64,000 nt of DNA from Lentisphaeria bacterium (GTDB taxonomy: Bacteria > Verrucomicrobiota > Lentisphaeria > Victivallales > Victivallaceae), in NCBI GenBank assembly GCA_022768375.1, contig JALEMG010000010.1:1-64000 (forward strand), in the 5' to 3' direction. The translations under genes were made by a program, and so were the position numbers. The notes beneath the pieces were generated by a model. The model made no database searches. It worked only from the letters and a program-made list of their open reading frames with translations, and had not been told where the DNA came from. Below, in pieces: positions 43,922 through 55,621 of the stretch; within the stretch, counting starts at the first letter, position 1, and each line of letters begins with the position of its first letter.

Positions 43922-43945
43922 AAAACCCCGGTCTGTCAACCGGGG
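43922..43945 (-). terminator. Intrinsic terminator of the pilus-like operon
   Basis: On the minus strand CCCCGGT (complement of 43939-43945), loop TGACAG and ACCGGGG (complement of 43926-43932) are followed by TTTT (complement of 43922-43925). It lies 16 bases after the second secretin's stop. Confidence 0.75.
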
Positions 43946-43960
43946 CCGAACGCTTCCGAG

Positions 43961-46252
43961 TCACATGTTCCGGGAGAATTCCGGGATCCCGTTGTTCTCC
44001 ACTTTGGGGTTGATCGCCGAACCGTCCGGCTTGATCAGCCGGCAGGTCATGAAGACCAGCAGGTGGTTCTTCTGGGAGTTCACGTACTTGCTCTGGAAAA
44101 ACCGCCCGATGAAGGGGATATCGCCCAGAATCGGCACTTTGTCGTCGATGCTCTTGCTCAGGTCCTGCGTTACGCCGCCGATGAGCACCGTCTCGCCGTC
44201 TTTCACCGTCACGATGGTTTTGATGGTCCGGTCGGTGAAGATCGGCTTCTTGATGTACTCGCCGTCGTCGTCATCACCGCCGCTGCGGGTATCCACCACC
44301 ATCCAGCCCGCGAACTGGATGATCGGAATATTGATCGGAACCTCGATCAGATCGCCTTTCGCTTTGGGCGTGATCTCGAACCAGACGCCGAGTTTCTGCT
44401 CGTCCTCCAGCGACGGCTGGGGGGTCGGCACTTCGATGCGGAAGTTTTCATTCGACTCGCTGTCGATGTTTTCCCAATCCTTCGGGTAGTAGTGAGTCTC
44501 GCTCATGTCGATTTTTGCGGTGGTGCCCGACAGCGTCGTGACCCGGGGCGAGTACAGCACATCGGTGGAATCCGCCCAGTCCAGCGCGTACATGCTCACG
44601 GACAGGAAGTTTTTCCGGTCGTACCACATGAACTGGTAGGTGGCGTCATCCTCCTGCCCCGGAGCGGTGGCCGCGGAAGTCACCGGGCTGGTGAGTTCAT
44701 ACTTCTGACCGCTTTGGGCGTTGCCGTCGAAGCGGTCGCTCTGATCCGGGCTGTAATGCCGCAGCAGTTCGTTGGTGTTCATCACTCCGGTGTAGCCTTT
44801 GCTGTTGAACCGGCTGTAGGCCCAGTTGAAGCCGAGTTCATCCAGATCGTTCTGATTGACTTCGATGAACTTGAACATCACCTGCACCATCGGTTCGCTG
44901 TCCCGCATGCTCTCCAGCACATAGCCGACCTTTTTCAGGTTCTCGGGGGTATTGCACACCACCACGTGGTTGCGGGCGCGGATGATCTGCACGGAGGTCC
45001 CTTCGCCGAAGGGGATGCCCTGACTGACGAAAAGGTTTTTCAGGGACTCGGGCTTGTCCTGAGTTTTCAGCGCATAGGAGAAGTGCCGGACTTCCATTTC
45101 CTCCAGCGGCACTCCGCTGGGCGCGACCAGCACCGCGTTGCTGCCGATTTTGAAGGAGAGGATACCGCCTTTCTGCAGGTCCTCCAGCAGATCATATACC
45201 GAACGGCGTTCGATGGAGAGGCCTTTCAGCGTCGGCTCATCCTGACCGGGGGCGACCGGCACGCTGCGGACCACGAAGTTCACGCCCCGCCGCTCCGGGT
45301 CGTACCGGCGGCAGTCCCGGGAGATGTCCTGCATCAACTGGCTGAACGTGATGTCATTGTCCTCGATCGTCAGCCGGGGAATGATGATCGACTTGAGTTT
45401 TTTCTCCAGCGGCGACTCCGCGACTTTGGCCACCGGCTGGTCAAGTTGATTCTCCGGCTCGCCCACCGGGGCGTCCGGGACGATGGGGATCGTGGAGTCC
45501 CACTCGACCTTGGCGATCATCCGGCGCGCCGTGGCGTTGGACCGGATTTTCGCATCCTTGCGGATCCGGTTGTAGACGCCCTCCAGATTCTTGATCCCCT
45601 CGGCGTTGAAGGGGTCCAGCAGCAGCACCTCCTCGAATTTCCGCTTGGCCTGCGTCAATTCGTCCCGACCGGCCAGCGTCCGGCCCTGTTCCAGCAGCCG
45701 CTGGATGTTGTACTCCTGCACGCTGTTATTCGGAAGCAGTTTGCCCATGGAACTGTTTTCCCGGTTCAGCGCCGCGTTGCGTCTCGTCTCATAGAACGCG
45801 ATCTTTTTCGCCAGTTCGTCCCGCTTTTCCGGGCAGTACTTCTGGGCTTCGCGGCAGGTGTTGACCGCCGCTTCAAAGTCGTTGCTGGTGGCCTGATCGT
45901 CGGCCTTTTTCATCGCATCGTCGGCCTTTTGCAGATAGCACTCCTTGATCCGCTTCCGGCACATTTCGATGCGGTCCTTGAACCTCTCGCCGCTCTGCAC
46001 CGGTTCCAGCAGTTTGATTACCTCGCGGTATCCCTGGATCGCCGCGTCGAAATCGCGGGCGAAGGCTTTCCGGTTGGCTTCCTTCATCTTGACGCCGCTC
46101 TCGAAATACAACTGCTGACGGCCGACATCCACCCGCCGGGTCAGATTGTCCGAGGTCCCCGCCGCCGGCGTCTCCGCCGCCTGCGGTTCCGCAGCCAGCA
46201 TTACCGCACCCAGAATCATGCCGGGTGCCAGAAACATCATTTTCTTATTCAT
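43961..46252 (-). CDS. Secretin-family outer-membrane protein, second paralog (Amuc_1098-like)
   Basis: The 763-residue protein has a signal peptide (MNKKMMFLAPGMILGAVMLA), an N-terminal helical-repeat region (FDAAIQGYREVIKLLEP, AKRKFEEVLLLDPFNAEGI), and a secretin N-domain (LLEDLQKGGILSFKIGSNAVLV). The C-terminal pore domain holds DVLYSPRVTTLSGTTAKI, VKDGETVLIGGVTQD and VPILGDIPFIGRFFQSKYVN. It would form a ring in the outer membrane. Start: GGAGGATG sits 9 nt before the ATG at 46252. It is paralogous to the secretin just upstream, from which it is separated by 23 bases. Confidence 0.85.
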   Translation of the reverse strand: MNKKMMFLAPGMILGAVMLAAEPQAAETPAAGTSDNLTRRVDVGRQQLYFESGVKMKEANRKAFARDFDAAIQGYREVIKLLEPVQSGERFKDRIEMCRKRIKECYLQKADDAMKKADDQATSNDFEAAVNTCREAQKYCPEKRDELAKKIAFYETRRNAALNRENSSMGKLLPNNSVQEYNIQRLLEQGRTLAGRDELTQAKRKFEEVLLLDPFNAEGIKNLEGVYNRIRKDAKIRSNATARRMIAKVEWDSTIPIVPDAPVGEPENQLDQPVAKVAESPLEKKLKSIIIPRLTIEDNDITFSQLMQDISRDCRRYDPERRGVNFVVRSVPVAPGQDEPTLKGLSIERRSVYDLLEDLQKGGILSFKIGSNAVLVAPSGVPLEEMEVRHFSYALKTQDKPESLKNLFVSQGIPFGEGTSVQIIRARNHVVVCNTPENLKKVGYVLESMRDSEPMVQVMFKFIEVNQNDLDELGFNWAYSRFNSKGYTGVMNTNELLRHYSPDQSDRFDGNAQSGQKYELTSPVTSAATAPGQEDDATYQFMWYDRKNFLSVSMYALDWADSTDVLYSPRVTTLSGTTAKIDMSETHYYPKDWENIDSESNENFRIEVPTPQPSLEDEQKLGVWFEITPKAKGDLIEVPINIPIIQFAGWMVVDTRSGGDDDDGEYIKKPIFTDRTIKTIVTVKDGETVLIGGVTQDLSKSIDDKVPILGDIPFIGRFFQSKYVNSQKNHLLVFMTCRLIKPDGSAINPKVENNGIPEFSRNM

Positions 46253-46275
46253 GTTTTTCATCCTCCGGCATCAGG

Positions 46276-48837
46276 TTAACGGCCGATTTCCGGCTTGCCG
46301 AAATTCGACTCCATCCGCCGAATCGGGACCCCGGAACTGTCCATGAGTTTCGCTGTAACGAATACCAGCATATTGCGCCGGTTTGACGTTTCGGAATGCG
46401 ACTGGAAAAGCCGCCCGATGAAGGGGATGTCCGCCAAAATCGGGATTTTGTCCAGCCGGGATTCCGCGAGGCTGTCGGACAAGCCTCCCAGCACCAGCGT
46501 TTCGCCGTGGTAAACGTCCACCTGCACATCCAGCGACCGTGTGGCGATGACCGGACGCCAGATCTTCAGTCCGTAGTAACTCTCGTCCGGGCTGATTCTG
46601 CCCTGACGATAGACCAGCACGTTCATGGTGTACTCGTCCTTGCCGATGTAACTGGTGATCTTCGGGCTGATGTTGAGCCGGATGGTCCGGTTGTCCTCCA
46701 GCACCGTCGGCGTCACGGTGAAAACCGTGCCCATCGTCTGGGATTCCCCGAATGTCGGGGTCGGCAGCGTCAGCGTGTAGGCGTAACCGTTGTCGCCGTC
46801 GCTGTCCTCGATCTCGATCTCCAGATCATCCCAACTCTCCGGGAAATAATACCGCTTGCCCATGGTCACGGTGGCGGTCTGCCCGCTGTTGACCAGCACT
46901 TTCGGCGCAGAGATCATTTCGGTGCGGTCGCTGCGGTCCAGCGCGTTGATGGTCAGCGACAGATTGAGCCGCACCTCCGAACCGAACGGCTTCATGGAGC
47001 CGATGATGTCCGGGAAGATGTTCAGATTCTGGATCAGCCGGGAATCCACTCCGCTCAGAGCGTTGCCCAGCATGGAGAGCATCGCGGCCTGTCCGGCGGA
47101 CTCGCTGTAATTGGTATTGGACCCGGGACCGGCCAGCCAGCCGGTGCGGTTGCCCTTGGAGTCGTAACCGAAGTCGTGGATCGTATTCAGCGACCAGTTG
47201 AAGCCCAACTCCTCCATGTCGCTTTCCTGCAATTCGATGCTCTTGACCTCGACCTGAACCATCGGCTTGTCTTCGTTGAGTTCCTGCAGGATCTCCGCCA
47301 GGCGGCGCTGATTGTCCAGCGTATTGGTCATCAGCACCTTGCCGCCGAAGAAACTGATGCTGCTGCCTTCGGGGAACTTGACCCCGTAGAGCCCGAAGAA
47401 TTTTTTCAGCGCGTCGGGCGAGAGGGAATCCACCTGCGCGTCCCCGCCGCCGGACGGCGCCGCGCCGCCCTCGTCATCCGAACTTGCCGGAGTTGCCGCC
47501 GGGGCCTCGTCCACGCCTTTTTCGTAGTTGTCCACCAGCCGGGTCACCCCGGGAGAGATGTCGTACCGCGCGACCTCCATCCCGCTGACGAAGCCCAGTT
47601 TCACCCGGTCGTCCTGCACGGTATAGGTCAGCCCGGTCAGGTAGCAGATGTAGTTCAGCAGTTCGCGGAGGGAGACGTTGTCCACGCTCAGCGTGACGAG
47701 AATGTCGTTCCCCTGTTGCTGGGCGGCGGTACCCTGCTGTCCGGCGGAAGCAGCGGCACGGGCCGTTCCGCCCGCCGGAGTTGCATCCGGTCCGGCTGCC
47801 GGTTCCTCCGCCGGCATTTCGGCCGCGGCCTTTTTCTCCGCCTCCGTTTCACCCTTTCTCGCGCTGTCGAAGTCGATCACCACTCCTTTCTTGTCCACCG
47901 TGTCGTAGTTCGCGTTGCGGCGGAGGAACTGGATCACCGCGGTGATCTCGGTCTGGTCAAACCGCACCATCGGAAAAATGATCCGATCGAGTTTCGACTG
48001 AATGCCGTGGTCGTCGGCGGATTTGACGATGCTGTCGACTTTGGTGCTGGTCTGGACCTCCCGCGGGAACACCGGTTCCACCCACTGCCACGCCTCTTTC
48101 GCCAGAATCCCGGCGTTGTCGGCCTGACGGCGGCGGTATCCGTAGATGTAGTAGTTTTTATAGATCTCATTGGCCAACTGGGCCGCTTCCGCGTTGTAGG
48201 GATTCAGCACGAAGATTTCTTCGACCTTGGCTCCAGCCTCCTCGAATTTCTTGTTCTGGAGCAGTGTCCGGACCGAGGCCAGCAACACCTTGATGTCCTG
48301 CTCCCGTTTGGCCAACTGGGGGTCGATTTTCTCCGGATCGCCCGCACTGCGGATCTCCGCCGCCCGGCTGCGGCTCTGGGCCGCCGAAATCAGGTCGTTG
48401 GCGCGGGAGGTCAACTCCTCGCACTTCTCCTTGGCCAGCGTCGCGGACCGGATCGCCTCGGTGTAATCGGCGTTGGCATACGCCTCCTCCGCTTCGGACA
48501 GCAGTTTTTTGCCGTACTCCAACTGCATATCGCGGAGGCGATCGGAGAATTCGTTCAGCCGCCGTTTCGCTTTCCAACTGTCCACGCTTTCGGACTGCAG
48601 TTTCAGGATCTCCACCACTTCGCCTTTAAGGATGTTGATGGCCTCGTCGTACTTGCCCGCGGCGGCGAGTTTGTCCGCTTCCGCGGCCCGGGCGTCCTGA
48701 CGGGCGAAGTCCTTTTCCACACTCTGCTCATGCCGTGCGGAAGGTCCCGTCGCCGTCGGAGTTTCCGCCGCCGCAACGCCGAGGACCACCGCCATGCAGA
48801 CGGCCAGCGGGCACACGATCAAGTTTGATTTTTCCAT
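46276..48837 (-). CDS. Secretin-family outer-membrane protein (Amuc_1098-like)
   Basis: The 853-residue protein has a signal peptide (MEKSNLIVCPLAVCMAVVLGVAAA) and TPR-like helices (KKFEEAGAKVEEIFVLNPYN). It has an STN/secretin N-domain (VSLRELLNYICYLTGLTYTV) and a secretin domain with MISAPKVLVNSGQTATVTMG, YHGETLVLGGLSD and IPILADIPFIGRLFQSHSET. Two Ala/Gly/Glu-rich linkers (residues about 335-390 and 455-485) break the conserved parts. It resembles the Amuc_1098 outer-membrane protein of Akkermansia and PilQ/GspD secretins. AAGGA lies 10 nt before the ATG at 48837. Confidence 0.85.
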   Translation of the reverse strand: MEKSNLIVCPLAVCMAVVLGVAAAETPTATGPSARHEQSVEKDFARQDARAAEADKLAAAGKYDEAINILKGEVVEILKLQSESVDSWKAKRRLNEFSDRLRDMQLEYGKKLLSEAEEAYANADYTEAIRSATLAKEKCEELTSRANDLISAAQSRSRAAEIRSAGDPEKIDPQLAKREQDIKVLLASVRTLLQNKKFEEAGAKVEEIFVLNPYNAEAAQLANEIYKNYYIYGYRRRQADNAGILAKEAWQWVEPVFPREVQTSTKVDSIVKSADDHGIQSKLDRIIFPMVRFDQTEITAVIQFLRRNANYDTVDKKGVVIDFDSARKGETEAEKKAAAEMPAEEPAAGPDATPAGGTARAAASAGQQGTAAQQQGNDILVTLSVDNVSLRELLNYICYLTGLTYTVQDDRVKLGFVSGMEVARYDISPGVTRLVDNYEKGVDEAPAATPASSDDEGGAAPSGGGDAQVDSLSPDALKKFFGLYGVKFPEGSSISFFGGKVLMTNTLDNQRRLAEILQELNEDKPMVQVEVKSIELQESDMEELGFNWSLNTIHDFGYDSKGNRTGWLAGPGSNTNYSESAGQAAMLSMLGNALSGVDSRLIQNLNIFPDIIGSMKPFGSEVRLNLSLTINALDRSDRTEMISAPKVLVNSGQTATVTMGKRYYFPESWDDLEIEIEDSDGDNGYAYTLTLPTPTFGESQTMGTVFTVTPTVLEDNRTIRLNISPKITSYIGKDEYTMNVLVYRQGRISPDESYYGLKIWRPVIATRSLDVQVDVYHGETLVLGGLSDSLAESRLDKIPILADIPFIGRLFQSHSETSNRRNMLVFVTAKLMDSSGVPIRRMESNFGKPEIGR

Positions 48838-48896
48838 TCGCCTGATTTCCTTCTGAGATATTGGATTCTCTTGATAAATTTCCCTGTCACCGACCG

Positions 48897-50219
48897 TCAC
48901 CGGAATCCGGCGCCGTCCATTTCATCCCGCCCCCGGTCCTTTCTGGCCACCGCACGGGCGCTGGAGGGGATTTTGCCCTCGGCGGTGATCTCGATTCGCG
49001 GACGTTCGCCGTTCTCATCCGGGCGTACGCCCAGATCGACGATCTTCACAATACGCTTCTCCACATCGACTTCCTTGAGTTGATACCGTCCGGCGGTACG
49101 GTCGCGGCGGAGATTCTCCACCCCGATGCCGCCGACGTAAACGATGTCGTTGATCCGCAGGGCGTACTCCATTCCCTCGGGGTATCCCACATCCTCCAGC
49201 ACCGGACGCTTATCCGAAGAATACGCCGGCTGGGCGATGGTCATGGTCAGTTTGTCCGGCTGGCGGGCGGAACCGCCCTCGTGGATCACTTCCGTCAGAA
49301 AAACTTTCGTCTTGTCCTGCGTTCTCGTTGCTTCGCCGCCGCCGAGGTTGCCCTCGACTTTCACCTGTTCGAACTGGCGCACCACATCGTCGATCCGGTA
49401 TTCCCGGGATTCGATCTCCACGCTCTCCCCGATCCGGCAGAAAAGGCTCACCACCTTGCCCTTGATCCGGCGGTGCGGCGTATTGAACTGCAGATCCCAC
49501 TGCTTCTTGTCCGTCACGCCGTTATCCGTGATCGCCATGAATTTGATCGGCAGTTCGATCTGCTTCACATCCTTCAGACGCAGCCGCCACCAGTACGGCG
49601 GATGGCTCGCGGGATTGGTGGGATCGAACCCGTTGGCGATTTCGATGTAGTTGGAGAACCCGTCATTGTCGTTGTCGTACAGCGCGTCGCTGGGATCATC
49701 GGGATTGAGGGAATATTTCTGTTCCAGATCGTTGGGGATGCCGTCGCCGTCGCGGTCCTGCTCGGACTTGATGCCGACGTACATTTTTTTCCGCTCCTGC
49801 GGGGCGGGCAATTCGTGATGGCAGACCGGACAGGACCGCTTCACGTCCTTGGAGGAGAAGTTGTCCAGCGGGATCAGTTTGATGTTGTCGGATTTCAGCG
49901 GATCATTGCAGTACGGACAGATCGCGATGGGGAACACATGCACCAGATCGCTGAACCCGGCGATATTGCTCTGCGGATCGCGGGACGCGCCGTCGTTCCA
50001 GACCAGTTTCGTGTCCTTCCACATGTATTCCGGGTCGAACATCTTGTCCTTGTCGTTGACCATTTCATGATCCGCCTCGCGCTTGGGCAACTGCAGATCC
50101 TTTTCCGAAATCTCCTGCGTCCGGCCGATGATGCCCTGAACCATGAACATCAGCGCGATGAACAGGACAAACAGACCCAGCAGGATCACTTTTTCATAAT
50201 GCCGCTTCAAAAAATCCAT
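48897..50219 (-). CDS. Amuc_1099-like pilus-system protein with zinc ribbon and Ca-binding repeats
   Basis: The 440-residue protein begins with a membrane anchor (VILLGLFVLFIALMFMVQGI, residues 11-30). A four-cysteine zinc ribbon follows (CPYC at 101-104, CPVC at 130-133), then two calcium-binding loops of the thrombospondin-3/dockerin kind, DRDGDGIPNDLE (155-166) and DNDNDGFSNYIE (182-193). A beta-rich C-terminal part follows. By gene order it corresponds to Amuc_1099 of the Akkermansia locus. The calcium repeats and the zinc ribbon suggest a metal-stabilised periplasmic assembly factor, a role I infer. Confidence 0.75.
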   Translation of the reverse strand: MDFLKRHYEKVILLGLFVLFIALMFMVQGIIGRTQEISEKDLQLPKREADHEMVNDKDKMFDPEYMWKDTKLVWNDGASRDPQSNIAGFSDLVHVFPIAICPYCNDPLKSDNIKLIPLDNFSSKDVKRSCPVCHHELPAPQERKKMYVGIKSEQDRDGDGIPNDLEQKYSLNPDDPSDALYDNDNDGFSNYIEIANGFDPTNPASHPPYWWRLRLKDVKQIELPIKFMAITDNGVTDKKQWDLQFNTPHRRIKGKVVSLFCRIGESVEIESREYRIDDVVRQFEQVKVEGNLGGGEATRTQDKTKVFLTEVIHEGGSARQPDKLTMTIAQPAYSSDKRPVLEDVGYPEGMEYALRINDIVYVGGIGVENLRRDRTAGRYQLKEVDVEKRIVKIVDLGVRPDENGERPRIEITAEGKIPSSARAVARKDRGRDEMDGAGFR

Positions 50220-50243
50220 GATCGTCTCTCTCCGGAAAAGCCG

Positions 50244-51695
50244 TTACTGATTCGGTTGCAGGACCACATAGTCGATATCCAGATACGCCGTGCATTCCGG
50301 TTCTCCGCCGATGCGGATCATCCCGTAATCCGACCGCTGATGCGGCGGCAGCGCGGCCTCCCGCTCCGCGATCTGACGCTGAACCTCATCATCTTTTCTG
50401 ACATCCCGAATTTCCGGTCCCGGTTCGGGACGGCGTCCTCCCCGGCGGCTCCGGCGGCGGACCTGCGGTTCCTCCCGCAACTCCTCGCGTTCCGGATTCT
50501 GAAGCGCGCCGGGAGACCCTTGATCCATAATCGCCGCCGCGCCGTCCTCCCGGGCGTAGAGGCAGAGACACCGCACCACATAGGTCCGGTTGTCCTTGTT
50601 GGCCTGGTCAAAGGCGCGTAACGCGGCCCGAATCGACTCCATCGTGCCGGTGAAAACCACCGTGTAGTGATAGACATGGAAACTGCCGACCTGCTCAAAC
50701 GATCCCTCAAGATTGAGGTTCCCCTCCCGTCCCCGGACGCCCTCCTCCCCGGACGCGGAGGTGCGGAGCACCACCTGCTGCAGCATTTTTGCTTTGGCAT
50801 TGCCGAGTCGGGTGACGATATCCCCGAATACATCCCAATGGAAAAGCGCCATGCCGTAATCCTTCATCGGCAATGCGTTACCGGTGGTCCCGCCGACGAA
50901 TACCAGCGCCTGCGGGCCGAGGTCGATCTTGCGCTCGGAGGCGTTGCGGACGATGGCCGCCACCACGTCATCCACGTACTGCTGCATTGCCCTCAGATCG
51001 TCGCCGGTCCGCCGGGGAAGCCCCAGCGCGATCAGCAGCATCGGGACCCGGGTATAGTTGTTCACCGGCTCGCAGGTGAGCGTTCTCACCGCCCGCGCGA
51101 ATGCCGCCACCGCCTCGTTCCAGTTACCCTCCGGGAAGAGCCGCATGTTGCGGGGCATGAACTCGTTGAGGGTGGCCAGCGACAATTTCGCCTCCTCGCT
51201 CTTGCCGTATTCCTCGCAGTATTTGTCGAACCGGGAGCGGAAGAACTCCACGAACTCGTCCTGCGTGAATTTGCGGATCTTGAGCGGAACCGCCTTCGTA
51301 CCCGCTTCCGGGTCGGCCTCGACGCCGGTGCCCGGCTCTTTGTACCGCTCCTTCTCCTCCTCGCTCAGCGCGGTGATCAGCGGGGGCTGCAGGACCTTGA
51401 AGAATTCGTCCAGCGCCGGCTGCATCGGAGACTTGAACTGCTTGCGCAGCCCCTCGGCGGCTTTTTTGTAGATCTCCACGTCGTGGCGGATGCGCTTTTC
51501 GTTTTCCGCGCCCGGGCTCGGTTTCTGCCGCAGGAGCGTCCGGATGCGTGCCCGGGCCTTGTCGGTCCGATCCCAGTAGGCGTTCCAGTCCAGAATCAGA
51601 ATGACCACATACACCAGCAATCCCAGCGCGATCACTCCGGCCGCGCCGAGGATCATGAACATCGGGAGGTTTCGCTTGATCACTTTCTTATCCAC
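50244..51695 (-). CDS. Amuc_1100-like pilus-system membrane protein
   Basis: The 483-residue protein has one N-terminal membrane helix (MFMILGAAGVIALGLLVYVV), then a periplasmic domain with long helices (TDKARARIRTLLRQ, DVEIYKKAAEGLRKQFK) and a beta domain ending SFHVYHYTVVFTGTMESIR and CTAYLDIDYVVLQPN. A low-complexity Arg/Pro-rich stretch is near residues 410-430. Gene order and layout match Amuc_1100, an Akkermansia envelope protein known to signal through TLR2. Start: GGGAGGT abuts a GTG at 51701, so the in-frame GTG at 51695, six bases farther, is preferred. Confidence 0.72.
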   Translation of the reverse strand: MDKKVIKRNLPMFMILGAAGVIALGLLVYVVILILDWNAYWDRTDKARARIRTLLRQKPSPGAENEKRIRHDVEIYKKAAEGLRKQFKSPMQPALDEFFKVLQPPLITALSEEEKERYKEPGTGVEADPEAGTKAVPLKIRKFTQDEFVEFFRSRFDKYCEEYGKSEEAKLSLATLNEFMPRNMRLFPEGNWNEAVAAFARAVRTLTCEPVNNYTRVPMLLIALGLPRRTGDDLRAMQQYVDDVVAAIVRNASERKIDLGPQALVFVGGTTGNALPMKDYGMALFHWDVFGDIVTRLGNAKAKMLQQVVLRTSASGEEGVRGREGNLNLEGSFEQVGSFHVYHYTVVFTGTMESIRAALRAFDQANKDNRTYVVRCLCLYAREDGAAAIMDQGSPGALQNPEREELREEPQVRRRSRRGGRRPEPGPEIRDVRKDDEVQRQIAEREAALPPHQRSDYGMIRIGGEPECTAYLDIDYVVLQPNQ

Positions 51696-51709
51696 AGTCA
51701 CACCTCCCG

Positions 51710-53491
51710 TTATTTCTTGAGCGCTTCTTTGAGCGTCAGAATGACTTCAAAACAAGTCAAATTGCTGTTGCGGGCGATTTCCAGCCGGGGGACCTGCAGA
51801 TTCGGCTCGAACAGGCTGGATTTCCGCACCCGGCTGATGAATTCATCGAAAAGATTGCGGTTGTCGTCAAGGTTCAGCGTGTATCCGGTCAGAGCGATAT
51901 TCTTCACTTCGCGCAGGGCGTTGACCGACTCCGGTGTCTGGTGCTTCCCCTTTGTCTCGCCGCGCCGACCGGGATCGGGCTCGTCACCGCCGTTGTTCTC
52001 GCCGCTCTGGACCGCCGGTTCCAGGGAAACCAGCCACATCCGGTCCGGCATCATCTCCTGGATCGCGTTGAGCACATCGGTGAATTTGCCGCGGTCCCGC
52101 AGGAACTGCGCGGATTCATCGTACTGACCGCGCCAGGAATTCAGTTCCCCGGCCACGGAGTTGATCTTCTTCACCTCGCCGTCTGCCCGGCGCACATCCT
52201 CCTCTACACGGGCGACCCGCTCCTTCTCGAAATTCAACTCCTTGCTGACGCCGACGGCGCTGATGATGAGACAGCAGATCAACGCGGCGGCGGAAGCGTA
52301 GAAATACGGCTTCCTGGCGTTGAGTTCCAACTGTTTGCGGATCGACCGCGGCAGCAGGGAAATATCCACCGGCAGCGTACCGATGTTGCGCAGCGCCGCG
52401 CCGATCAGACTTTGAGACATGGAAGCCACATTCTGCAGCGCGCCCAGATCGACGCTCGGATTGATCCCGATCAGGCCGAATGTGTTGAGATACTCCACGG
52501 GGAGCCGCAGTTTTTCCTGAAAGAAATCTGTGGTGTACTGCATGGTGCTGCCGCCGCCGGCCAGCAGCACCCGCGTCGGAGCGTTACCTCCGTGCTGGGC
52601 GCGCCACACGCTGACGGAACGGCTGATCTCTCCGTGCAGCCGGGTCATGGTGTTGCGGGCCAGTTTGGAGATCGTCGCCGCCAGTTCGGAATCCGGTTCG
52701 TCGTACGCCCCGCCGAGGGCGACGAAACCGACCCGACGCTTCAAATCCTCCGCTTCGGATTCGGGGACCCCGAACTCCCGGGCGACCTGGGCGGTCACGG
52801 AGTCGCCGCCCATCGGGATGTTGCGCATGAAGATCCGCCGCCGGTCCGCGATCATCAAACTGCTGGTCCGGGAACCGATGTCCAGCACCAGCACACATTC
52901 GTCATCCCGAATCTGGGAGACCACCGCGGCGTTGAACAGCGCCAGCGGCGCCAGTTCCACCGAGAGCAGTTTCTGTCCCGCATTCTCAATGACGTCGGTG
53001 TAGCACACCACGTCCTCGCTTTTCATCGCGACGAACAGGGCTTCGTACTCCTCGTTGGTGACAGCGACGTTTTCCACGGTGCCGTCTTCCTGTTCGACGG
53101 CGCGGGTCTCCTCCCAGCGATGGTGGAGCAACTGATAGCCCCACTCCACTTCGTCCATGGAGTAGGGGACCGCCTGCGAAGCCTCGAATTCGATCAGTCG
53201 GGAAACCGTGGCGCTGCTGCCCAGCATCGGCGGCAGTTTGCTCAGACGCTGAAACGAGTTTCCGGCGGAAAGCAGCAGCCGCACCTCCGTGGCGGTGAAT
53301 CCGCCTTCGCCGAGCATTTCGAGGTAGTTGCGTTCGAAACAGGCGCCGTCGCTCTCCCCGTCAAGTTTTTCCACTCTCCGGAACCGGAAGCCGGTCAACT
53401 GGATACCGCCGGAAGCCGGAAAGATGAACTCCGCCATCTTCAGACTGCTGCCGCCGACATCAACCGCCAGGATCTTTCTCTCTTTCGCCAT
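51710..53491 (-). CDS. PilM-like actin-fold protein fused to a PilN-like part (Amuc_1101-like)
   Basis: The 593-residue protein starts with a PilM/FtsA-type ATPase fold: LAVDVGGSSLKMAEF, EFEASQAVPYSMDEVEWGYQ, VLVLDIGSRTSSLMI and VLLAGGGSTMQYTTDFFQ. Near residue 396 a membrane helix (YFYASAAALICCLIISAVG) leads to a coiled coil (EKERVARVEEDVRRADGEVK) and a PilN-like periplasmic domain. In classical type IV pili PilM and PilN are separate. It probably anchors the secretin machine to the inner membrane. GGAAACAACGT precedes the ATG. Confidence 0.8.
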   Translation of the reverse strand: MAKERKILAVDVGGSSLKMAEFIFPASGGIQLTGFRFRRVEKLDGESDGACFERNYLEMLGEGGFTATEVRLLLSAGNSFQRLSKLPPMLGSSATVSRLIEFEASQAVPYSMDEVEWGYQLLHHRWEETRAVEQEDGTVENVAVTNEEYEALFVAMKSEDVVCYTDVIENAGQKLLSVELAPLALFNAAVVSQIRDDECVLVLDIGSRTSSLMIADRRRIFMRNIPMGGDSVTAQVAREFGVPESEAEDLKRRVGFVALGGAYDEPDSELAATISKLARNTMTRLHGEISRSVSVWRAQHGGNAPTRVLLAGGGSTMQYTTDFFQEKLRLPVEYLNTFGLIGINPSVDLGALQNVASMSQSLIGAALRNIGTLPVDISLLPRSIRKQLELNARKPYFYASAAALICCLIISAVGVSKELNFEKERVARVEEDVRRADGEVKKINSVAGELNSWRGQYDESAQFLRDRGKFTDVLNAIQEMMPDRMWLVSLEPAVQSGENNGGDEPDPGRRGETKGKHQTPESVNALREVKNIALTGYTLNLDDNRNLFDEFISRVRKSSLFEPNLQVPRLEIARNSNLTCFEVILTLKEALKK

Positions 53492-53554
53492 ACGTTGTTT
53501 CCAAAAGTTATCGCGGTCTCACCCAATATCATCTGCGGGAGCGAGCCTCCGGCC

Positions 53555-54286
53555 TCACTCCTTTTCGCCACCCTCTTTTTTCCGGTCGTCCTCCCAGTCG
53601 AAGTTGTCCGGAGCCAGCAGCGCCCACGGCGAACGGGCCCGGGACAGCACCGCGTCCCGGATATCCAACTGCTTGGGCACCCCCTTGAGCATCTGGTCGA
53701 AACTCTGTTTCTTCTCGGCGGGCGTCGTGCCGGGGACATTGCAGTAAGCGGTGGCCAGTACCTTGCCTTTTGCCGACATCACCAACTCCACATGGAAGAA
53801 ATTCTTGTTGACGCTCCGCCCGCCGGGAGCGCAGTACCGGTCCAGCAGCCGGGCGGGAACGAACATCAGCGCGAGGTGTTTCGACCCGTCCCGCTTGACC
53901 GACTGGAACACCGTGTCTCCGGTGAAAACTCCCAGCACCGGCTTGCCTCCTTTGGAGACGATCCCGGTCTCGAACAGCACCCGGGTCTGCAGTTTCACAT
54001 CGTCCAGCCAGCCGGGGAACGTCACCGAGGGGCCGCCCTTGCGCAGCCGATACTCCGGCACGAAGGTTTTGCTCAGTTCCGGGGTGTACTCGATTCTAAG
54101 CATCAGCCACTTGCTGACGGAGGGGTTCTTGGGGGAGAATGCGGAGTGGTTGCGGTACGAAACGTCGGGAGCCGCCGTCATTTCCGCGTCGACCGTCATC
54201 TTGCGGATGATCGGCTCCTCCGCGGCGGAAAGCGCGATCCCCCCCGCCAACGCCGTCACTGCCAGCAACATCAACTTCCCCGTCAT
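53555..54286 (-). CDS. Amuc_1102-like pilus-system protein
   Basis: The 243-residue product has a signal peptide (MTGKLMLLAVTALAGGIALSA). Its mature part contains KWLMLRIEYTPE, FPGWLDDVKLQTRVLFETGI, VKRDGSKHLALMFVPARLLDRYC and VNKNFFHVELVMSAKGKVLATAY. It resembles the Amuc_1102 family found beside PilM-like and secretin genes in PVC bacteria. AAAGGTGGAACG supports the ATG at 54286; an in-frame ATG at 54310 overlaps secG. Being secreted and between secG and pilM, it is a plausible periplasmic partner of the pilus-like system. Confidence 0.7.
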   Translation of the reverse strand: MTGKLMLLAVTALAGGIALSAAEEPIIRKMTVDAEMTAAPDVSYRNHSAFSPKNPSVSKWLMLRIEYTPELSKTFVPEYRLRKGGPSVTFPGWLDDVKLQTRVLFETGIVSKGGKPVLGVFTGDTVFQSVKRDGSKHLALMFVPARLLDRYCAPGGRSVNKNFFHVELVMSAKGKVLATAYCNVPGTTPAEKKQSFDQMLKGVPKQLDIRDAVLSRARSPWALLAPDNFDWEDDRKKEGGEKE

Positions 54287-54306
54287 CGTTCCACCTTTCG
54301 GAAAAT

Positions 54307-54684
54307 TCACTTCTGCGCCGGCGGAACCGCCGGGACCGGCGCCGGAGCCGCCCCCGCTTCCGGAGCCGCCGCCGCCTTTGCCGCCGGAAGCGCCTCCTGA
54401 GCCGCCTGTTTGTCGAGTTCCTCGCGGACCCCGTCCCCGCCGCTGTTCATCCCGTGGCCGATGAAAGCCGCCAGCGCCAGCGCGATGATGAAAAAAATCG
54501 TCGTCATGATGACGGTGGTCTTGGTCAGGTGGCTCCCGGCCTTGCCGCCGAAAACCGATTCGCCGATGCCGCCGAACGCCGCTCCCATGCCGCCGGATTT
54601 GGACGGCTGAATGAGAATCAGCGCGATCAGCAGCAGCGAGACCACGAAGATCATCACGTAGAGAAAAACCGTTGTAATTGCCAT
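54307..54684 (-). CDS. secG: Preprotein translocase subunit SecG
   Basis: The 125-residue protein has two membrane helices (TVFLYVMIFVVSLLLIALIL and TVIMTTIFFIIALALAAFI) around the conserved IQPSKSGGMGAAFGG and ESVFGGKAGSHLTKTTVIM loops, as in SecG. A low-complexity Ala/Pro-rich cytoplasmic tail follows (residues about 80-125). SecG helps SecYE and SecA translocate proteins. It lies between tpiA and the pilus-like genes. Confidence 0.93.
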   Translation of the reverse strand: MAITTVFLYVMIFVVSLLLIALILIQPSKSGGMGAAFGGIGESVFGGKAGSHLTKTTVIMTTIFFIIALALAAFIGHGMNSGGDGVREELDKQAAQEALPAAKAAAAPEAGAAPAPVPAVPPAQK

Positions 54685-54736: not shown

Positions 54737-55516
<780 letters not shown>

Positions 55517-55593
55517 CTTCTCACACTCTCTCCACTTGCCAAAACCTAAAACAGTCCCATTGTTTCGCAGTCGAATGCACATGCGAACAAGAG

Positions 55594-55621
55594 AATATAG
55601 CATAACAACAGCATTTGTCAA
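55594..55621 (-). promoter_or_regulatory. Strong predicted promoter of the tpiA-secG-pilus operon
   Basis: On the minus strand a consensus TTGACA (complement of 55616-55621), 16 bp and TATATT (complement of 55594-55599) lie about 70 bases before tpiA. It is the best -35 match in the window. Confidence 0.75.

Follow-up and report, generated by a model that had tools for sequence, protein, structure and literature searches.

Paired secretins in a Lentisphaeria locus of the Akkermansia MUL2 type

A secretin ring is generally assumed to consist of copies of a single protein, and the question raised by this locus is what two different secretin genes are doing side by side in it. The window (the whole stretch of 64,000 nucleotides that was analysed) is located on contig C44 of the 2.25 Mb genome, in 64 contigs, of a gut bacterium whose closest named relatives are Lentisphaeria from the colon of sheep and from the guts of other animals. 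The two genes are called SecA and SecB here, being the first and the second secretin gene of the locus in transcription order. With somewhat better than even confidence, the locus is read as the Lentisphaeria form of MUL2, a T4P-like glycan machine, in which SecA and SecB would be specialised, non-redundant subunits of one machine, either in a mixed ring or as two pore types on one platform. A pair conserved across an order, together with parallel duplications, allows the idea that ring pores specialise through duplication to be tested in nature, and it also has direct implications for the capture and uptake of mucin and other glycans by bacteria of the Akkermansia type.

The genes form a minus-strand run, tpiA-secG-1102-1101(PilM/N)-1100(PilO-like)-1099-SecA-SecB, and the features are listed in Table 1. 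The sequence-only reading had described six minus-strand genes in the order Amuc_1102 to Amuc_1098 with the secretin present twice; all six open reading frames were confirmed on that strand and in that order, and the order 1102-1101-1100-1099-secretin is that of a locus of the MUL2 (Amuc_1098-1102) type. A transcript start before tpiA is probable, and since there is a promoter-like site ahead of tpiA and a terminator-like hairpin behind SecB, a single transcript from tpiA through SecB is plausible. SecA probably starts at an ATG near 48837, inside the listed open reading frame. For SecB, the second ATG (46252) stands 9 nt after GGAGG and gives a gap of 23 nt to SecA; with the first ATG (46261), which stands directly on GGAGG, the gap would be 14 nt. 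The start at 46252 is the probable one, with which the 23-base junction described earlier holds; it does not hold with the start at 46261.

Table 1. Features of the paired-secretin locus and its surroundings (positions in the window)
Feature	Position	Strand	Basis
tpiA, triose-phosphate isomerase	54737..55621	-	ORF; same neighbour in most related loci
Promoter-like TTGACA-16-TATATT	55621-55594		before tpiA; 11/12 matches
secG	54307..54684	-	PF03840 and TIGR00810, above cut-off
Amuc_1102 (MUL2A)-like exported protein	53555..54310	-	position; NF042424 Amuc_1102_rel via family members
Amuc_1101 (MUL2B)-like PilM	51710..53491	-	NF045709 5.4e-110; PF11104 1.8e-21
Amuc_1100-like, PilO position	50244..51701	-	NF038287 6e-8 alone
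Amuc_1099-like, PilP position	48897..50219	-	NF042425, PF18884, alignment
SecA, first secretin	46276..48900	-	PF00263 8.7e-30; NF042912 268.6 bits over residues 39-861
SecB, second secretin	43961..46261	-	PF00263 3.6e-30; NF042912 233.2 bits
Terminator-like hairpin	43924..43947	-	after SecB; 10-pair stem, then T-rich tail

The model NF042424 (Amuc_1102_rel) was matched by 6 of 19 family members of the 1102 homologue, and the window copy searched alone gave no match of its own to it. The 1101 protein reached 369 bits against Amuc_1101_fam (equivalog cut-off 650), and its C-terminus may be a membrane and coiled part like PilN. The 1100 protein scored weakly against NF038287 when searched alone (32 bits, cut-off 180), and 14 of 17 family members match this model. 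The 1099 protein, at 50.5 bits against NF042425 (Amuc_1099_fam, cut-off 50), carries an N-terminal membrane anchor followed by a Cys-pair (zinc-ribbon-like) region and a TSP3 calcium-type repeat, the acidic positions of which are nearly invariant among relatives in the alignment. Sequence searches of the 1100-like, 1102-like and 1099-like profiles against PDB returned nothing meaningful.

Compared with MUL2 of Akkermansia muciniphila (Amuc_1098-1102, the PilQ/Amuc_1100 operon), the window locus has the same gene order and homologues of 1101 (PilM/N-type), 1100, 1099 and 1102, and both have a TPR-bearing secretin and no motor genes in the locus. The window locus, however, has two tandem secretins with tpiA-secG directly upstream, whereas Akkermansia MUL2 has one secretin and an extra copy that is unlinked. 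With type IVa PilMNOPQ it shares the order of functions and, in the genome, ATPases of the PilB/PilC/PilT type; unlike that system, it combines PilM and PilN parts in a single protein, lacks a recognisable PilP domain, and has two PilQ-like secretins and unlinked pilins. Compared with GspD of the T2SS, the secretins have the same C-terminal secretin fold and N-domains, with scores of 102-105 bits against the TIGR02517 cut-off of 351, and a separate T2SS is present in the genome.

Pfam, NCBIfam and the fold search all identify both copies as secretins, and the profile search placed neither outside the family. The PF00263 secretin domain was matched at 105 and 104 bits (cut-off 27.5), and the best NCBIfam match of both was Amuc_1098_fam (NF042912; SecB 5e-69, SecA 1e-79), with the model spanning SecA end to end. 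The scores of 233 bits for SecB and 269 bits for SecA are far under the equivalog cut-off of 750, and the two are therefore remote homologues outside the Amuc_1098 equivalog. The models for PilQ (TIGR02515; 113.8 and 102.7 bits, cut-off 284) and GspD (TIGR02517; 101.9 and 105.4 bits, cut-off 351) were also matched under cut-off. The earlier assignment to an Akkermansia-type locus is thus right by families and gene order, with the limits that the family match is remote (233-369 bits for the proteins of the locus versus equivalog cut-offs of 650-750) and that the pair is general to the whole order.

SecA and SecB both carry a signal peptide, as judged from the sequence, as well as a TPR-like region of helices, N-domains and a full secretin domain. 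In the predicted structure of SecA these are found at residues 54-270 (TPR), 298-460 and 495-565 (N-domains) and about 640-860 (secretin), and the domain order is the same in SecB; the models are of moderate confidence, with a pLDDT of 63-65 that suffices for domain order and is too low for interfaces. In the fold search both models matched structures of PilQ and GspD over the barrel, and BfpB as well, and the alignments place the gate/lip motif and the N-domains in both copies, in agreement with the shared TPR-like region, N-domain and pore segment noticed earlier. SecA and SecB would form an oligomeric ring in the outer membrane.

It had also been suggested that one copy could be a chaperone-like partner. 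That one copy is a chaperone, pilotin-like protein or assembly partner and not a pore would agree with the TPR regions borne by both copies, since this is the fold of many pilotins. However, TPR regions are also present in the single-copy relatives, both proteins match the PilQ and GspD structures over the barrel, and both keep complete, conserved secretin domains with the gate/lip motif, because of which such a role is considered improbable. Within one genome, SecA and SecB are about 22-35% identical, with the lowest identity in the periplasmic TPR region (0.20) and the highest in the gate/lip region (0.45), and no fixed type-II differences between the two were found at the 85% level.

The pair is order-wide: 66 of the 67 genomes of the window's order, probably Victivallales, are consistent with it. 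A SecB orthologue is present in all 67, and SecA is directly upstream of it in 60 by profile and in five more by direct reading; in the remaining two genomes, one pair is split over two contigs and one locus contains a gap. In all 18 loci from public genome contigs, either the pair is present or the locus is fragmented or ended by a contig edge. The gaps between SecA and SecB are 2-72 nt in most loci. A redundant recent copy or an assembly artefact is practically negligible as an explanation, as the low identity of the copies within one genome, their separation into sister clades as deep as the order and the occurrence of the pair in dozens of independent assemblies, including the single-contig genomes G150 and G117, all stand against it. 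Since both copies are adjacent in essentially every genome of the order examined, the machine apparently needs two different pore proteins. No paper describing a two-secretin Lentisphaeria version was found in the literature searched, which lay mostly outside subscription journals, and the apparent need for two secretins is the new element of this version.

In other Lentisphaeria families, a single secretin of about 935 aa is found in 17 of the 21 loci with a complete secretin; a search for a second distant copy in 17 genomes of this kind found none, and returned only shorter secretins scoring like those of T2SS. The exception is a second Lentisphaeria family, in which two or three copies stand in tandem (L070, L072, L093, L094); three members of one genus (L070, L093 and L094, in G192, G209 and G294) carry three tandem secretins through independent duplications. 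Outside the class, a tandem pair is found in one genome (L086). In Akkermansia, a second Amuc_1098-family secretin is encoded at an unlinked locus beside folD, without PilMNO genes (L089:7147-9669, L090:6140-9235, L092:7148-9706), and it lies above the NCBI equivalog cut-off in several species; work on Amuc_1098 may be overlooking this second member of the family.

The history of the pair was read from a main tree of 59 rows under a mixture model. The SecA clade (support 99) and the SecB clade (99) group as sisters (97) within Lentisphaeria, and a larger fast tree agrees on the sister clades. Phylogeny had been set beforehand as the refuting test (are the two sister or in-group copies?), and the copies are sister clades within the Amuc_1098-type family, as expected for the old duplication that had been suspected. 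The trees point to a single duplication at the base of the order. The alternative of an earlier duplication with later loss was rejected, with p-AU of 0.010 and 0.011 for the single-copy Lentisphaeria secretins grouping with SecB or with SecA. On the same tree, the other Lentisphaeria family, L086 and Akkermansia each gained their extra copies separately, and the secretin of this locus type has therefore been duplicated at least four times.

To our knowledge, known secretins are homo-oligomers, and a mixed ring would be unusual. Three indirect tests bear on whether SecA and SecB work together, and they favour one shared machine. Across 36 genomes, with the divergence of 1101 removed, the rate co-variation between SecA and SecB was the highest of all pairs (r=0.67, Mantel p 0.0005), while each co-varied with 1100 at about 0.3 and neither with 1099. 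In addition, SecA and SecB of the same genome were more alike than those of different genomes by 0.06 log units (p 0.0002) after removal of row and column rate effects, and this excess persisted when only composition-neutral residues were used and when the lineages were thinned. In a control comparison of nine to eleven genomes, the SecA-SecB excess was 0.047-0.050 (p 0.0004), compared with -0.007 to 0.013 for the pairs PilB1-PilB2, PilB1-GspE and PilB2-GspE. The same-genome effect is small, corresponding to about 1.4 percentage points of identity, or about ten residues per protein. Gene conversion was not supported as its source: the shared residues are scattered and not in tracts, which speaks against it, and identical stretches reach no greater length within a genome than they do between genomes.

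Co-assembly of SecA and SecB in one mixed ring, of whatever ratio, is a serious possibility that falls short of an even chance. It would agree with the adjacent genes and their short gaps, with the co-variation in rate and in residues in the absence of conversion tracts, and with the gate/lip region being the most alike. Against it, there is no precedent among the solved secretin structures matched or in the literature searched, and a common partner would yield the same signal; the same-genome likeness fits a shared ring and a shared partner equally and does not separate them, and the co-variation could reflect shared selection on homologous sites and not contact. Two separate homo-oligomeric pores, made from one operon on one platform for different cargo (e.g., a filament versus secretion or polymer uptake), are a tentative alternative to be taken nearly as seriously. 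Each copy has every domain for its own ring, the lowest identity falls in the periplasmic TPR region, as expected if the partners differ, and the second family member of Akkermansia stands apart from any PilMNO genes. However, the SecA-SecB signals of rate and same-genome similarity are the strongest of all pairs tested, the locus has just one PilM/N-PilO-1099 set, and the two genes stay directly adjacent throughout the order. The mixed ring is slightly preferred over two pore types on the same platform. Its strongest form, an obligately mixed ring of two diverged paralogues that is fixed across the order and was reached more than once in the phylum, is rather unlikely.

The other parts of the machine would come from elsewhere in the genome. 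As had been observed earlier, no pilin, ATPase or prepilin peptidase gene is found within the locus; all of these are encoded elsewhere, and the type IVa pilus parts PilB, PilC, PilT, PilD and pilins are present and unlinked to the locus. Contig C60 carries PilB1 (656 bits, cut-off 676) and PilB2 as tandem PilB-type ATPases with PilC (L041:4264-9043), and two further PilT-like stretches; the genome also has two prepilin peptidases and 32 prepilin signals over cut-off. A T2SS locus is present on C24 (L042) and a Tad-type cluster on C44. Both systems might draw on part of this unlinked set, which weighs against the one-machine reading.

In the proposed machine, 1101 (PilM/N), 1100 (PilO-like) and 1099 (PilP position) would form the inner-membrane platform, on which PilB and PilC would assemble a pilin filament. 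The filament would pass the outer membrane through the secretin channel, and its retraction would pull the polymer in the direction of the periplasm, in line with the proposal for MUL2 in Akkermansia. By homology, the locus most likely makes a T4P-like machine that catches glycans and probably takes them in. In A. muciniphila, the MUL genes (described as encoding pili and periplasmic complexes) are needed for mucin products to build up in internal compartments (PMC12418764). Amuc_1098, placed in the outer membrane by immunogold, is the most abundant protein there, and a Lentisphaera homologue of it has already been mentioned (PMC4960237). The MUL2 locus is conserved in aquatic and marine Akkermansiaceae, where uptake of labelled fucoidan was demonstrated (PMC13174399). 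No experiments on the locus in Lentisphaeria were found in the literature.

The tandem PilB1/PilB2 was considered as a counterpart of the secretin pair and rejected: a double PilB is present in the majority of the Verrucomicrobiota genomes checked, Akkermansia and Lentisphaeria with a single secretin among them, and therefore does not explain the paired secretins.

Several further duplications were observed among these genes. In one relative, a 222-aa secretin-like frame is located between SecA and SecB (L021:12586-13251; 45 bits with the SecB query) and is perhaps a decayed third copy; in another, the 1099-type gene is tandemly duplicated (L010:7210-9998). A second PilM-type (1101-like) gene is located away from any Amuc_1098-type secretin in a third genome (L106:5094-6827, on G233:C108). 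The genome of the window itself contains two more tandem pairs of divergent secretin-like proteins of 493-674 aa, on C26 and C55 (L043:5790-8937 and L044:1900-5505), with no pilus genes recognised beside them. It also encodes a tandem PilT-PilT fusion of 752 aa with both Walker A motifs intact (L046:4362-6617; C41:64361-66616). Full-length fusions of this kind were present in 11 of 24 other genomes checked, all of them Lentisphaeria, and in none of the six genomes of other classes checked; with such a fusion, a PilT ring would have to consist of paired, unlike subunits.
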